From NCBI RefSeq assembly GCF_007741535.1, contig NZ_CP036525.1:5952001-6016000 (forward strand): 64,000 bases of DNA. Reading direction: 5' to 3'. This DNA comes from Rubripirellula lacrimiformis. Lineage in GTDB: Bacteria > Planctomycetota > Planctomycetia > Pirellulales > Pirellulaceae. Below the pieces are notes generated by a model. That model had not been told where the DNA came from. It did no database searches and worked only from the letters and a program-made list of their open reading frames with translations. Positions 12,904 through 25,535 of the stretch are shown here, one piece after another (position 1 is the stretch's first letter; each line of letters begins with the position of its first letter). A program made the translations under genes and the position numbers.

Positions 12904-14535
12904 GTGAACAAGACGCTCCCCAACTATTTAAAAGTCCACCGCGGACCTGACCAACAGAACGCCCCCTCCCTCGACGCACCCTCCCATGCCGGTCCCCCCG
13001 CCGACAGCGTCGAGCAGTTCTGGAATGACTTTACCTGCACCACCGGATGGCGGCTCGACCGACGAGCAAGACGCCGCAGCAAAACGGTGCAGGTCCTGCC
13101 AACGGTCAGCGATATTGATCTGGGGAGCGTCTTGGAAAACACCAGCGGCAGCACGCTGGATGCGATCATCGATCCAGCTCAGCCCTACCCTGCATCACCA
13201 CACGGACCGACTCATGCACCGGAGTCACCAGCGACACACAGTCGCCATGAACTGAGCAAGAAATCAGCGACACGGTTGGCCGAAGCTGCCGACCGGCTGA
13301 CCACCGAACTGACCGAAGCACGCGATACCCTCCGTCATCAATCGATGGAACTGGCCGCTCGAGCGTCGCTGATGGCCGGTGCGGACGAAACCACTCCGCT
13401 TGCCGATCGCATTGAATCGCTGCTTGGCGACGCGGCGGCAGCCTGCCACTGCGATGCCGCAGTGCTGTACCTGTTGGATGACAACACCGAGTTTTTAGAA
13501 GGAAGAGCCGCGTTTGGAATCAGCAGCCAAACCTTGGCCAAGCCCCCGCGGCATTTGCGTGGCAGTCGCGGTGACCTCGAAGCCATGGTCCGCGACGTCG
13601 TCACGATCGACGACTTTGCCGCTGGATCCATCGATACCTGGAACCCACCGGAAACTTTCGCCGCGGGGATCTGCGTTGTCATCAAATCGGTCGGCGTCCC
13701 CATCGGGACTCTTTGGCTGTTCGCGAACAAGACCACCGAATTCGGCAAATCAGAAACGGCTGCCGCTCGACTGGTCGCAAGCGCCATCTCGTTGGAACTA
13801 TCGTCCGCATCCCAGCGGCGCGACACCCACACCGAAAAGCAAGAAACATCGACGGTCCATGAAGTCGCCACATGGCAACAAGAATCGCTGCCCGTAGGAT
13901 CCAACCTTGCCGAGCACTGGCGCGTCGATGGCATGATCGATTCGCCCCAAGAATGGGCAACGGGATGGCACGCTTGGGACGTACTGCCCGACGGCACGCT
14001 GATGCTGGCGATTGCCGAAGCGGTCGAGCGATCGATCGTCGGCGCCATGCATGCAGCGGTCGCCCGATCAGCCCTTTCGTCACACACCGGATACCGACAC
14101 ACACCTGCCCAGATCCTAGGGCGAGTCAGTGATACGCTGTGGCAAACCAGTACCGGCGAACAACTGGTGTCGATGCTGTATGCACGAATCGATCCGGAAA
14201 CTGGCGAAGGCGAAGTTGCATCTGCGGGCAACATCACTGCGATGGTCGGAAACAAATACGGATACCGGCCATTGGTCGACGGACGTGGCGAACCACTCAA
14301 CAGCCACATCGATGCCCGTCCCACCATGCGAACGTTCCGACTGCTGGCCGGCGAAACCATGCTGGCGTACACCCAAGGCATGAACACCGAACAACTGACG
14401 CAGCGATGCCTGGGCACGCACCTACGCCGCTCGATGCGAGCAGGTGAACGCAACCCACTCGCAGCGATTCGGCGTGAACTGGCCAGCGCTCCACTGACGA
14501 CGGAACGCGGCGCAGTTTCGCTGCTAAGGATCTAG
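12904..14535 (+). CDS. GAF plus SpoIIE-type PP2C-fold protein with degenerate active site
   Basis: About 543 residues. After a Pro/Ser-rich N-terminus (FWNDFTCTTGW is the first conserved-looking block) there is a coiled segment (ATRLAEAADRLTTELTEARD), a GAF-like sensor domain (CDAAVLYLLDDNTEF, GICVVIKSVGVPIGTLWLF) and a C-terminal SpoIIE/RsbU phosphatase-fold domain. In that domain the metal-binding motifs are altered: the GGD-type motif reads ATGWHAWDVL, the D-x-x-G-x-G motif reads AIAEAVERSI, GH reads AGNITAM, and the last YTDG motif reads GETMLAYTQGMNTE. It therefore probably acts as a pseudophosphatase or a regulatory scaffold. The GTG at 12904 was chosen because the sequence from the ATG at 12781 is unlike protein; neither has a clear ribosome site. 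Confidence 0.72.
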   Translation: MNKTLPNYLKVHRGPDQQNAPSLDAPSHAGPPADSVEQFWNDFTCTTGWRLDRRARRRSKTVQVLPTVSDIDLGSVLENTSGSTLDAIIDPAQPYPASPHGPTHAPESPATHSRHELSKKSATRLAEAADRLTTELTEARDTLRHQSMELAARASLMAGADETTPLADRIESLLGDAAAACHCDAAVLYLLDDNTEFLEGRAAFGISSQTLAKPPRHLRGSRGDLEAMVRDVVTIDDFAAGSIDTWNPPETFAAGICVVIKSVGVPIGTLWLFANKTTEFGKSETAAARLVASAISLELSSASQRRDTHTEKQETSTVHEVATWQQESLPVGSNLAEHWRVDGMIDSPQEWATGWHAWDVLPDGTLMLAIAEAVERSIVGAMHAAVARSALSSHTGYRHTPAQILGRVSDTLWQTSTGEQLVSMLYARIDPETGEGEVASAGNITAMVGNKYGYRPLVDGRGEPLNSHIDARPTMRTFRLLAGETMLAYTQGMNTEQLTQRCLGTHLRRSMRAGERNPLAAIRRELASAPLTTERGAVSLLRI

Positions 14536-14542
14536 CAAAGTC

Positions 14543-15958
14543 GAACCCAACGCAAAATCGTTTAACCGCGTGGGCAACGCCCCGCGCGTCCACCCCCTAA
14601 AACGAACGCCCCGATGGGCACGCGGCGAAACAACAGCGGACGATGCGGATGGCGCGGACAGTCAACCCCAACCCGAAATCGTTTAACCGCGTGGGCAACG
14701 CCCCGCGCGTCCACCCCCTGAAACCGCACGCCCCCCTGGGCACGCGGTGAAACGAAAGTGGACGATGCGGATGGCGCGGACAGTCAACCCCAACGCGAAA
14801 TCGTTTAACCGCGTGGGCAACGCCCCGCGCGTCCACACCCTAAACCGCCCCCCCCTGGGCACGCGGCAAACAACAGTGGACGAGGCGGATGGCGCGGACA
14901 CCCGAACACAACACGAAATCGTTTAACCGCGTGGGCAACGCCCCGCGCGTCCACCCTCTGAAACGCACGCCCCCCTGGGCACGCGGCGAAACAACAGTGG
15001 ACGAGGCGGATGGCGCGGACAGTCAACCCCAACACGAAATCGTTTAACCGCGTGGGCAACGCCCCGCGCGTCCACTCCCTAAAACGCACGCCCCCCTGGG
15101 CACGCGGCAAACAACAGTGGACGAGGCGGATGGCGCGGACAGTCAACCCCAACACGAAATCGTTTAACCGCGTGGCCAACGCCCCGCGCGTCCACTCCCT
15201 AAAACGCACGCCCCCCTGGGCACGCGGCGAAACAACAGTAGACGAGGCGGATATCGCGGACAGTCAACCCCAACGCGAAATCGTTTAACCGCGTGGGCAA
15301 CGCCCCGCGCGTCCACCCCCTAAAACGAACGCCCCCCTGGGCACGCGGCGAAACATCAGCGGACGATGCGGATGTCGCGGACAGTCGCCCCCAACACGAA
15401 ATCGTTTAACCGCGTGGGCAACGCCCCGCGCGTCCACCCCCTGAAACGCACGCCCCCCTGGGCACGCGGCGAAACAACAGTGGACGAGGCGGATGGCGCG
15501 GACAGTCAACCCCAACACGAAATCGTTTAACCGCGTGGGCAACGCCCCGCGCGTCCACCCCCTGAAACCGCACGCCCCCCTGGGCACGCGGCGAAACAAC
15601 AGTGGACGATGCGGATGGCGCGGCCCCCCGAACACAACACGAAATCGTTTAACCGCGTGGGCAACGCCCCGCGCGTCCACACCCTAAAACGCACGCCCCC
15701 CCTGGGCACGCGGCGAAACAACAGTGGACGAGGCGGATGGCGCGGACACCCGACCCCAACACGAAATCGTTTAACCGCGTGGGCAACGCCCCGCGCGTCC
15801 ACTCCCTAAAACGCACGCCCGATGGGCACGCGGCGAAACAACAGTGGACGAGGCGGATGGCGCGGACAGTCAACCCCAACACGAAATCGTTTAACCGCGT
15901 GGGCAACGCCCCGCGCGTCCACCCCCTGAAACTCGCCCTGATTGGCACGCGGCTAAAC
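14543..15958. repeat. Tandem array of 12 units of about 121 bp
   Basis: The core AAATCGTTTAACCGCGTGG recurs at 14555, 14676, 14798, 14916, 15037, 15157, 15278, 15399, 15520, 15642, 15764 and 15884, giving spacings of 118-122 bp and near-identical units. Each unit has inner inverted segments (CCGCGTGGGC with GGGCACGCGG; GTCCAC with GTGGAC). Open frames run across it on both strands, but unit lengths are not multiples of three, so the reading frame changes from unit to unit and a coding repeat is unlikely. The array starts directly after the SpoIIE-like gene's stop. Unlike CRISPR there are no unique spacers. Confidence 0.95.
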
Positions 15959-16029: not shown

Positions 16030-16539
16030 TCACCGCTGCGCCGATAGCTTCCTCACCACCCAATCCACCGTGACAGCTAGACACATCACGGCAAATGTTC
16101 CGCCGATTTGAAAGAGCGGTGTGAAAATCAGGTTCAGGCCCCCCTGCGCATCGTCGGAAACCGCATCGAAGGCATCGATCCCCAACCAGACGCATCCGAC
16201 CAGAGTAAGTGCGATCAGAAACAACGCGATCCAGGTTGTCAGCGTCCGACAGCCGAGCCAAAGGATCAGATACGGCGCGGCAATCAGGCCGAAGATGGTG
16301 ATCGCAAACCCCGAGACACCACGCGTCATCCAGAATGCCCAGCACACGAACGCTACCGCACACAGCAACGACGACCGCCCCAGAATTTTGCCTGCACGCT
16401 TCGCAGCGCGTGAACCTGCCGGCACATCAGCGGCAGCGTTCTGCGGTTCCACCTCACTGGGTGGCAGGTAAGGTGATTGCTGATTCAAGGGGATCCAATC
16501 TAGTCCAGGGCGATTCCAGCCGACGACGACCGCAGCCAC
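16030..16539 (-). CDS. Small multi-spanning membrane protein, unknown function
   Basis: A 169-residue protein with about 4 hydrophobic helices (SSLLCAVAFVCWAFWM; AITIFGLIAAPYLILWLGC; TWIALFLIALTLVGCVWLG; IGGTFAVMCLAVTVDWVV) after a polar N-terminus with PYLPPSE. No catalytic motif or family is recognised. It lies 20 bases downstream of the decayed cyclase-like gene on the same strand. The start is uncertain: the first ATG was kept, but a shorter start before PLNQQSPYL would match the usual planctomycete N-terminus of short membrane proteins (NPYxxP type). Confidence 0.55.
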   Translation of the reverse strand: MAAVVVGWNRPGLDWIPLNQQSPYLPPSEVEPQNAAADVPAGSRAAKRAGKILGRSSLLCAVAFVCWAFWMTRGVSGFAITIFGLIAAPYLILWLGCRTLTTWIALFLIALTLVGCVWLGIDAFDAVSDDAQGGLNLIFTPLFQIGGTFAVMCLAVTVDWVVRKLSAQR

Positions 16540-21520: not shown

Positions 21521-22650
21521 CGTCCTTTGGCATCCTTCTTCGTAGCGGAAGTCGTCAAGACTTTCGATGACCCCACACCAATCGGCAAGTTCACCGATTA
21601 AGTGAGCCGCGACGCGTAAGCGGCCGGGAATCCCCCGTGCCCATCCCCATACCCATACCCATACCCGTGGCCTCACGGCCAGCGGCTCACCAATGCCGTT
21701 GGACGTTCGCCCCAATCACAAACCGTCGACGCGTTCCGCTACGATCATCCTTTGGCATCCTTCTCCGTAGCGGAAGTCGTCAAGACTTTCGATGGTCCCA
21801 CATCAATCAGCCGAACCAATCGGCGAGTTCGCCGATTAAGTGATCCGCGACGCGTAAGCGGCCGGGAATCCCCCCGTGCCCATACCCATCCCCGTCCCGC
21901 TGCCCGTGGCCTCACGGCCAGCGGCTCACCAATTCCGTTGGGCATGCGTCCCAATCACAGACCGTCGTCGCGTTCCGCAACGTTCCTCCTTTGGCATCCC
22001 TTTTCGTAGCGGAAGTCGTCAAGACTTTCGATGGTCCCACATCAATCAGCCGAACCAATCGGCGAGTTCGCCGATTAAGTGATCCGCGACGCGTAAGCGG
22101 CCGGGAATCCCCCCGTGCCCATACCTGTGCCAATCCCCATGCCCGTGGCCTCACGGCCAGCGCTCACCATTCCCGTTGGACGTTCGCCCCAATCCCAGAC
22201 CGTCGTCGCGTTCCGCAACGTTCCTCCTTTGGCATCCCTTTTCGTAGCGGAAGTCGTCAAGACTTTCGATGATCCCACACCAATCGGCGAGTTCGCCGAC
22301 TGAGTGAGCCGCGACGCGTAAGCGGCCGGGAATCCCCCGTGCCCATCCCCATCCCCGTCCCGCTGCCCGTGGCCTCACGGCCAGCGGCTCACCAATTCCG
22401 TTGGACGTTCGCCCCAATCCCAGACCGTCGACGCGTTCCGCTAAGTTCGTCCTATGGTGTCCTTCTTGGTAGCGGAAGTCGTCAAGACTTTCGATGACCC
22501 CACACCTATCGGCAAGTTCACCGATTAAGTGAGCCGCGACGCGTAAGCGGCCAGGAATCCCCCATCCCCATACCCATCCCATGCCCGTGGCCTCACGGCC
22601 AGCGGCTCACCAATGCGGTTGGGCGTTCGACTCAATCAACCGGCCGTCGC
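21521..22650. repeat. Tandem array of 5 units of about 225-239 bp with nested hexamer repeats
   Basis: The phrase AGCGGAAGTCGTCAAGACTT recurs at 21544, 21769, 22008, 22246 and 22471 (spacings 225, 239, 238, 225). Each unit also holds CGCGACGCGTAAGCGGCC, CCGTGGCCTCACGGCCAGCG and CGTTCGCCCCAATC. Inside each unit a run of CCCATA/CCCATC/CCCGTC hexamers varies in number, which helps explain the length differences. The CGTGGCCTCACGGCCAGCGG part is palindromic (GTGGCC TCAC GGCCA). Open frames across it are shadows. The 210 bases between the TadE-like gene and the array hold nothing recognisable. Confidence 0.93.
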
Positions 22651-22875: not shown

Positions 22876-22948
22876 TGGAGCTGAAGAGATTTGAACTCTC
22901 GACCTCTGCATTGCGAACGCAGCGCTCTCCCAACTGAGCTACAACCCC
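22876..22948 (-). tRNA. tRNA-Ala (anticodon CGC)
   Basis: The minus strand folds as a standard cloverleaf: acceptor GGGGTTG pairing with CAGCTCC, including the G3:U70 pair that defines alanine tRNAs; D arm from GCTCAGTTGGGAGAGC; anticodon stem CTGCG/TGCAG with loop TTCGCAA (anticodon CGC, codon GCG); T arm GAGAG-TTCAAAT-CTCTT. The discriminator base is A. The genomic 3' CCA is absent (ACTCGCC follows), so CCA is added after transcription. Confidence 0.95.
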
Positions 22949-24922: not shown

Positions 24923-25535
24923 GGCCGATTGCAAATTGCAAAATGAACATTGCAAATTGGATATTGGATATTGGCCTGAGAGCGACGTGGTGGCCGATTG
25001 CTAGAAGCCAGCTGCTTGGGCTTCGACTGATTGCCGGACTCTGCTTGTCTTCGCTAAGCGTCCTGTCGATTTGCAATTTGAAATGTTCATTTTGCAATTT
25101 GCAATCTTCGTGCTGCTCCCCCCTCACCCCAGCCCTCTCCCCCACACAGAATGCGAGCTCCACTCGTATTCTGTGCGGGGGAGAGGGGGCAAAAAGTCTG
25201 GTCGCCGGAAGGTGAGGTGATTGCAAATTGCAAATTGCAAAATGAACATTGCAAATTGGATATTGGATGCTGGCCTGAGAGCGACGTGGTGGCCGATTGC
25301 TAGAAGCCAGCTGCTTGGGTTTCGGCTGATTGCCGGACTCTGCTTGTCTTCGCTAGGTGTCCTGTAATTTTGCAATTTGAAATGTTCATTTTGCAATTTG
25401 CAATCTTCGTGCTGCTCCCCCCTCACCCCAGCCCTCTCCCCCACACAGAATGCGAGCTCCACTCGCATTCTGTGCGGGGGAGAGGGGGCACAAAGTGTGG
25501 TCGCCGGAAGGTGAGGTGATTGCAAATTGCAAATT
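24919..25535. repeat. Tandemly duplicated MITE-like palindromic element (two full units and a fragment)
   Basis: Units begin at GTGAGG, 24919 and 25212, about 293 and 299 bp, with a third fragment from 25511. Each unit has an inverted repeat of about 25 bp (GATTGCAAATTGCAAAATGA at the left, its reverse complement near 25082-25107 in unit 1), a 130-bp inner segment, then a long GC hairpin at 25133-25187 and 25432-25486 (CCCTCTCCCCC / GGGGGAGAGGG with an inner GAATGCGAG/CTCGTATTC arm; the second unit's arm is perfect). No transposase is encoded, so it looks like a non-autonomous element. The fragment reaches to 15 bases from the rsmH stop. Confidence 0.88.

Follow-up and report, generated by a model that had tools for sequence, protein, structure and literature searches.

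What kind of element is the tandem array that lies between two convergent genes of Rubripirellula lacrimiformis, and how did it come to be repeated twelve times? We examined it in a 64,000-nucleotide stretch of the chromosome, hereafter the window (contig NZ_CP036525.1, positions 5,952,001 to 6,016,000). The array, at 14558–15958 of the window, consists of 12 units of 118–122 bp that are ~92% alike. It is very probably a tandemly amplified REPIN, a non-autonomous element with a GTTTAAC head; the RAYT encoded in the same genome, an HUH/Y1 single-strand transposase, is its likely mobiliser. We infer its mobility and the mechanism of its amplification.

Anatomy of the repeat unit

TRF reported the array at 14539–15932 with a period of 121, 11.5 copies, 92% matches and a score of 2327, the highest among the 22 TRF rows of the window. 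Twelve exact copies of the head TCGTTTAACCGCGTG are spaced 118–122 bp apart, and each opens one of the units in Table 1. The sequence-only reading had described a twelve-copy array of ~121 bp and was right in this. It had also called the units nearly identical, which is a little overstated, as units 1–11 show a mean of 9.7 differences over 123 columns. Its remark that the period is not a multiple of three holds for this array; over the family, 15 of 39 loci have a median period that is a multiple of three, about as expected by chance. Comparing units within the array gave mean differences of 9.6–10.3 at lags of 1–5 units; the values were 7.2 and 8.3 for lags 6 and 7, rose to 13.7 and 11.0 for lags 8 and 9, and stood at 6.0 for lag 10 (one pair), a signal too weak for the claim of a higher-order repeat.

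Table 1. Features of the array, its flanking genes and the candidate transposase gene (window positions unless marked as chromosomal)
Feature	Position	Strand	Basis
Whole array of 12 REPIN units	14539–15958	+	TRF and head positions
Unit 1	14558–14678	+	head position
Unit 2	14679–14800	+	head position
Unit 3	14801–14918	+	head position
Unit 4	14919–15039	+	head position
Unit 5	15040–15159	+	head position
Unit 6	15160–15280	+	head position
Unit 7	15281–15401	+	head position
Unit 8	15402–15522	+	head position
Unit 9	15523–15644	+	head position
Unit 10	15645–15766	+	head position
Unit 11	15767–15886	+	head position
Unit 12, stops at end of core	15887–15958	+	head position and unit alignment
5′ head TCGTTTAAC of left REP, unit 4	14919–14927	+	sequence; GTTTA[AG]C also beside RAYT genes
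Left REP hairpin, unit 4 (CGCG, bulged T, GGGC, loop AAC, GCCC, CGCG)	14928–14947	+	pairing and covariation, 40 arrays
Right REP, unit 4, inverted, worn	14963–14993	-	sequence
Array-private spacer, unit 4	14994–15037	+	spacer comparison
5′ flanking gene, SpoIIE-type phosphatase domain (PF07228), outside the element	12904–14535	+	Pfam and gene prediction
3′ flanking predicted gene, convergent, without Pfam match, outside the element	16030–16539	-	gene prediction
RAYT gene, 204 aa, inside an array	chromosome 5222195–5222806		elements on both sides

Each unit contains a core of ~80 bp, in which two inverted REP hairpins form a REPIN with a GTTTAAC head, and a spacer of ~44 bp. The core consensus reads about TCGTTTAACCGCGTGGGCAWCGCCCCGYGCG, a variable middle and ACGCGCGGCCCGVTGGGCACGCGGTTAAACGA, corresponding to two REPs in inverted orientation. 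An alignment of representatives from 40 arrays confirmed this pair, and the internal inverted segments noticed in the sequence-only reading are real. In the window array the right REP is worn: its head is GTTTCGC, not GTTTAAC, and one stem base is missing, in unit 11 as well.

When each of 40 loci was represented by one element, a model of two local bulged-T hairpins had 98.6% of cells paired, and neither this percentage nor the score was reached in any of 500 shuffles. Three pairs changed on both sides (reached by 2/500 shuffles), in seven such cells (0/500), and the number of pair types was not unusual (181/500). A single long dyad also paired in 95.2% of cells, but 483 of 500 shuffles paired as well and there was no excess of covariation. 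Covariation between arrays thus supports two small bulged-T hairpins over one long dyad as the likely structure, and the conserved, covarying structure suggested beforehand was found for the hairpins over the family. The unit of the window array showed no clear folding advantage over shuffles (z −1.1 and −0.9), in contrast to units from two other arrays (z −4.1 and −4.8).

The family therefore consists of short hairpin-forming palindromes, as REPs and REPINs do, the worn right REP of the window array notwithstanding. It lacks the 5′ GT[AG]G tag of the GTAG superfamily, the head in the 40-array consensus being TCGTTTAAC. Nor does it fit the CGTC superfamily: CGTC stands behind the left hairpin in many rows, not all, and is absent behind the right one, and a RAYT is present, though CGTC REPs are defined without a transposase. 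A CRISPR array was rejected, as the spacers recur within the array and are not unique.

Spread over the chromosome and growth in place

A BLAST search with one unit (14903–15023, also the query for the genus) gave 355 matches in the genome, a single contig of 8.54 Mb. Scanning 140 stretches (2.45 Mb in total) with a profile of the core revealed 415 elements in 56 loci, or 45 after merging by coordinates, which rejoined loci split by ten insertion sequence (IS) copies or by the RAYT. On an even grid of 20-kb tiles, 100 in all, we counted 22 loci and 191 elements, giving an estimate of ~94 loci (bootstrap 56–132) and 816 elements (414–1303) per genome. More than one element, up to a maximum of 21, was present in 42 of the 45 loci, and all 42 had a single element orientation. 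Median periods ranged from 75 to 151 bp in the 39 loci with three or more elements.

Many extragenic copies are typical of REPs and REPINs, and none of the 415 elements in the 2.45 Mb lay inside a predicted gene of score >30; five low-scoring frames (12–18) from a simple gene finder overlap arrays. The window array sits between convergent genes, in agreement with the earlier observation that the genes at its ends are on opposite strands. Among 42 loci (three of the 45, at block edges, were left out), 22 lay between convergent, 18 between co-directional and 2 between divergent genes (p ~1e-6; background gaps 261/1388, or 19%, convergent and 17% divergent), as called by our own simple dicodon gene finder. 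REPs are described in the relevant text of PMC3733652 as lying mostly downstream of genes, between unidirectional or convergent ones; because the same bias is thus reported for REPs generally, convergent placement points to tolerance at gene ends, not to a role for the flanking gene pair. Orientation was suggestively biased between replichores (Fisher p 0.055; 42 of 45 loci, three weak ones left out). Such a bias is expected for a single-strand transposase.

Locus positions fit a uniform spread along the chromosome (KS p 0.69), which argues against the single replication or nucleoid site that had been considered. The idea of a special link to the SpoIIE-like gene found no support either, given the ~94 estimated places of the family. 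The stop codon of this gene is 20 bp from the first core, and the gene also has a GAF match below its cut-off. TRF found no such array behind its closest ortholog, in G003; this site was rejected as an exact empty site because the downstream gene differs. In a related species, G021 (L208, 2827–3301), the ortholog is directly followed by another kind of tandem array (120 bp x 3.9, 96% matches), whose inverted segments begin with GTGG. Broadly similar but unrelated arrays have thus apparently arisen twice behind orthologous SpoIIE genes.

Cores and spacers behave differently. Core identity was 91.3% within arrays and 78.8% between them; spacer identity was 82.0% within arrays, 44.3% between them and 42.5% in shuffles. 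The core comparison left out 60 of the 415 elements (<70 model positions), and the nearest-neighbour count a further four that were alone in their array; of the 351 cores counted, 327 had their nearest core within their own array (12 expected). Cores are shared and spacers are private, and therefore cores spread between sites, followed by local copying of the core with its neighbouring DNA. The pattern fits seeding followed by local amplification, and it bears out the earlier suggestion of amplification or homogenisation within the array. Of 35 arrays, 19 have a left flank similar to their own spacer and 12 have a right flank similar to it; for the array in the window, the value on the left (0.06) falls close to the 5% line, and the right side shows no resemblance to the spacer.

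Two steps could account for these arrays. The RAYT would read the GTTTAAC head and bulged hairpin in single-stranded DNA and seed REPINs, which would survive mostly behind genes. One REPIN with flanking host DNA was then duplicated head to tail repeatedly and locally, whether through slippage, through unequal recombination or through repeated cleavage by the RAYT, and the copies were homogenised within each array. The first step is our inference; the second is supported by the sequence. The outcome would be satellite-like DNA that needs no function for the neighbouring genes.

Other repeats were present. The window contains a second, unrelated tandem array (21815–22637, 225 bp x 3.6) with inverted arms GTGAGCCGC / GCGGCTCAC, of which GTGAGCCGC has 45 matches in the 2.45 Mb sampled; this is perhaps another REP-like family. 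A 299-bp direct duplication with 96% matches lies at 24928–25535. Three kinds of IS, two with DUF772 and one with Tn5-type domains, occur inside REPIN arrays, which hold 10 of the 11 full copies in the 2.45 Mb (chromosomal loci 876195, 1673366, 2676583, 4423000, 5580229, 5582375, 5584084, 5601948, 7376497 and 7699886). The eleventh, 1301 bases long from 4298773, sits shortly ahead of a worn array starting at 4300291. At 1673366, the Tn5-like IS (one copy with both ends visible) is flanked on both sides by left-hairpin GGCGTTGCCC.

A candidate transposase and its flanking tag

The genome contains five Y1_Tnp matches. One of them, the RAYT gene of Table 1, lies inside a REPIN array, as expected of a cognate RAYT; the remaining four are not flanked by the GTTTAAC repeat. 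Its best NCBIfam model is the REP-associated tyrosine transposase, at 46.1 bits against a cut-off of 80, and it reaches 21.6 bits in Pfam against a cut-off of 23, so that it falls below both curated cut-offs. A database search returned 1529 relatives, and many of the 120 listed are named RayT. The protein contains the HUH motif QHVH and the tyrosine motif YVIENP, and H102, H104 and Y172 are invariant in 38 homologs. Its predicted model (pLDDT 81) resembles IS200-type transposases and matches 4er8, the TnpAREP-REP complex (E 4.3e-4, TM 0.48/0.58, rank 4 behind ISDra2 transposase chains), which suggests a TnpAREP fold. A sequence search of solved structures gave no significant match (transposase 2f4f at E 0.75), and PHROGs gave none. 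In 16 aligned proteins of the clade, whose signature is [EQNC]H[VT]H with W[TNAG] and YV..NP, the conserved W is followed by T, N, A or G.

In the genus, BLAST matches to the unit were present in 3 of 22 genomes (355 in R. lacrimiformis, 77 in G002 and 1 in G003); the other 19 had none. The core was detected in 28 of 149 family genomes (covariance model, E <= 1e-4) and a RAYT relative in 31 of 149 (E <= 1e-3). In the phylum sample, 13 of 392 genomes, R. lacrimiformis included, had a RAYT relative (E <= 1e-10). Neorhodopirellula pilleata, an environmental laboratory strain, also carries one. Regularly spaced copies, some at exactly 100 bp, were found among the matches listed for the single-contig genomes G027 and G092, and regularly spaced repeats also surround RAYT genes in G092 and G115. 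REPINs are present in G002 and G027, the latter with arrays, without a match to the R. lacrimiformis RAYT, and G122 is likewise missing from the 31 family genomes in which a RAYT match was detected; therefore, the REPIN–RAYT link is not strict within genomes. In such genomes the mobiliser may have been lost, be too distant, or be missing from the draft (G002 has 310 contigs).

The flanks of RAYT relatives were searched for shared words (300 bp on each side) with no motif set in advance, though CGTTTAA had been noticed beside relatives beforehand. In the family set, the commonest 7-mer shared by both flanks was GTTTAAC, at 17 of 20 loci including that of R. lacrimiformis. In the phylum set (21 loci from 12 genomes, five from one) it was GTTTAGC, at 7 of 21 loci; among 6-mers, CGCCGC (11/21) led over TTTAGC (10). 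In a third, named set, comprising the best 80 of 247 loci, nearly all from planctomycetes, 6 loci with <150 bp of flank were left out, and GTTTAGC (33) and GTTTAAC (27) led among the 74 usable loci; at least 9 of the 80 named loci stand on contigs already represented among the family relatives, so that the sets overlap. TTTA[AG]C stood on both sides at 17/20 family, 11/21 phylum and 60/74 named loci. GTTTA[AG]C was found within 300 bp on both sides at 59 of the 74 named loci, on one side at 3 and on neither at 12, against 0 of 56 for both sides of a far control. The density of TTTA[AG]C was 5.9 per kb near the genes and 0.31 per kb far from them. The 30 bases from each head (n = 233) folded at a mean of −9.5 kcal/mol versus −8.1 when shuffled, and better than shuffled in 156 of 233.

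Exceptions were observed. Among 20 RAYT loci inspected for CGTTTAA, this word stood on neither side at L242, L243, L244 and L246 and on one side at L245. L247 (G115) has a broken RAYT relative with internal stops among GTTTAAC repeats, several at 80-bp spacing. Four RAYT relatives without two-sided TTTA[AG]C (L298, L300, L333 and L338) share GTTTCGCGA or GTAGCGGC/GTAGCGGTC in their flanks, possibly variants of the tag.

Divergence of the RAYT tracks that of the 20 bases following the head (Mantel r 0.76, 0/5000 permutations; the 15 of 20 family loci with a head and an intact relative), a correlation that fell to 0.71 and 0.61 without outliers and that shared descent alone could raise. A RAYT in G092 that is 72% identical has a stem nearly as in R. 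lacrimiformis, and relatives of at most 56% identity have other stems.

In Pseudomonas fluorescens SBW25 (PMC3116915), REPINs likewise consist of two inverted REPs and a spacer, are intergenic and RAYT-associated, and show compensatory changes; 16 ordered REPIN clusters repeat with flanking sequence, and there are regular tandem arrays of single REPs of up to 12 sequences. However, most SBW25 REPINs are single, the largest ordered cluster has four, and the head is of the GT[AG]G kind. The E. coli TnpAREP/RAYT (PMC8266576) has the HUH motif, the catalytic Tyr, the 4er8 fold, a conserved head and a stem bulge, but its tag is GTAG and it differs in the Y motif. TnpAY1 classes (PMC6006769) are also single-strand transposases with flanking hairpins. 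Class 2.2 has E after the conserved W, in contrast to T, N, A or G here. Class 3 occurs in Planctomycetes and shares W[TA], but has the foot CnGA and YV[VI][AENY]EQ. None of the 11 signature rows given for these classes shows the combination found here, and the published tags there are GT[AG]G, with class 2.6 atypical and CnGA in the rare class 3. The GTAG and CGTC superfamilies (PMC3733652) are likewise tagged palindromes that form dimers and clusters reiterated in tandem with flanking DNA; the tag differs from those described in the text, and CGTC repeats are said to be transposase-free. The same source credits R. baltica with a plethora of tyrosine transposase genes flanked by repeats. Bacterial satellite families such as those of Leptospira interrogans (PMC6749651) are also non-coding tandem arrays, with one family at many sites, but here the unit holds a hairpin element and the genome a candidate mobiliser.

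GTTTA was absent from the RAYT papers listed in a search of the open-licence PMC literature; in two planctomycete papers (PMC11588811 and PMC5394234), the letters 'rayt' are just part of an author or company name. Compared with this literature, the kind of element, a REPIN array with a RAYT, is known, small tandem clusters being already present in SBW25. What looks new is its satellite-like scale and the presence of one tag across the phylum.

Alternative explanations and biological meaning

Could the RAYT itself have built the arrays? The head and flanking cleavage sites would make a REPIN a preferred target, and excised single-strand circles would re-enter beside their source in the same orientation, host flank included. 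The single orientation in all multi-element loci, the spacers that resemble host flank in part of the arrays and the regular repeats around RAYT genes in G092 and G115 agree with this, as does the cleavage by E. coli TnpAREP at CT dinucleotides beside the REP (PMC8266576). Yet arrays occur in G027, where no match to this RAYT was detected, the arrays do not end at a single fixed position (left alike in 19/35, right in 12/35), and slippage or unequal exchange accounts for the same data; we consider such building unlikely. Quite improbable, in our judgment, is a selected regulatory or structural array, whose hairpins would terminate or insulate transcription of convergent genes, or serve as sites for a nucleoid protein. 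The hairpins are conserved and 22 of 42 loci are convergent against 2 divergent, but REPs generally lie so according to the passage of PMC3733652 used above and need no special function. TTTT is absent from the window array, and there were 2 terminator-like sites versus 5.0 in shuffles, so the insulator once proposed finds no backing in its terminator form. The uniform chromosomal spread and the absence of the unit from 19 of 22 genus genomes also speak against regulation.

Covarying hairpins would equally be expected of structured non-coding RNAs made in series, but a single-strand DNA substrate predicts them just as well, the spacers are private, and no promoter-like site at the array rose above shuffles. 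Rfam matched the window at one place only, a tRNA at 22876, which tells against the known structured RNA that had been envisaged, and such a series is highly unlikely. Long repeats can be misassembled, yet no evidence of this was found: the genome is a single 8.54-Mb contig, many loci, with up to 21 elements, have private spacers and periods of their own, and regularly spaced copies recur in single-contig G027 and G092. The assembly artefact named earlier as a refutation is the least probable explanation, with next to no weight. A tandemly amplified REPIN with its RAYT as likely mobiliser remains our preferred reading, with movement, tag reading and the mode of array growth as its putative parts.

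Tentatively, and with more doubt than confidence, we propose that Planctomycetota hold a distinct RAYT class with a GTTTA[AG]C guide tag in place of GT[AG]G, together with a matching third REP superfamily, and that this RAYT class or its hairpins turn REPINs into satellite-like arrays at ~100 sites per genome. If true, this would be transposase-linked bacterial satellite DNA.

REP tags are thought to guide RAYT cleavage. In the GTTTA[AG]C clade the tag appears to be held while the stems drift with the protein, which would offer a natural test case for the way a RAYT reads tag and stem. The arrays may represent satellite-like bacterial DNA with a plain origin in a mobile hairpin. With arrays in two genera (and private spacers in the one examined), it becomes possible to ask whether the transposase or ordinary recombination is their builder.
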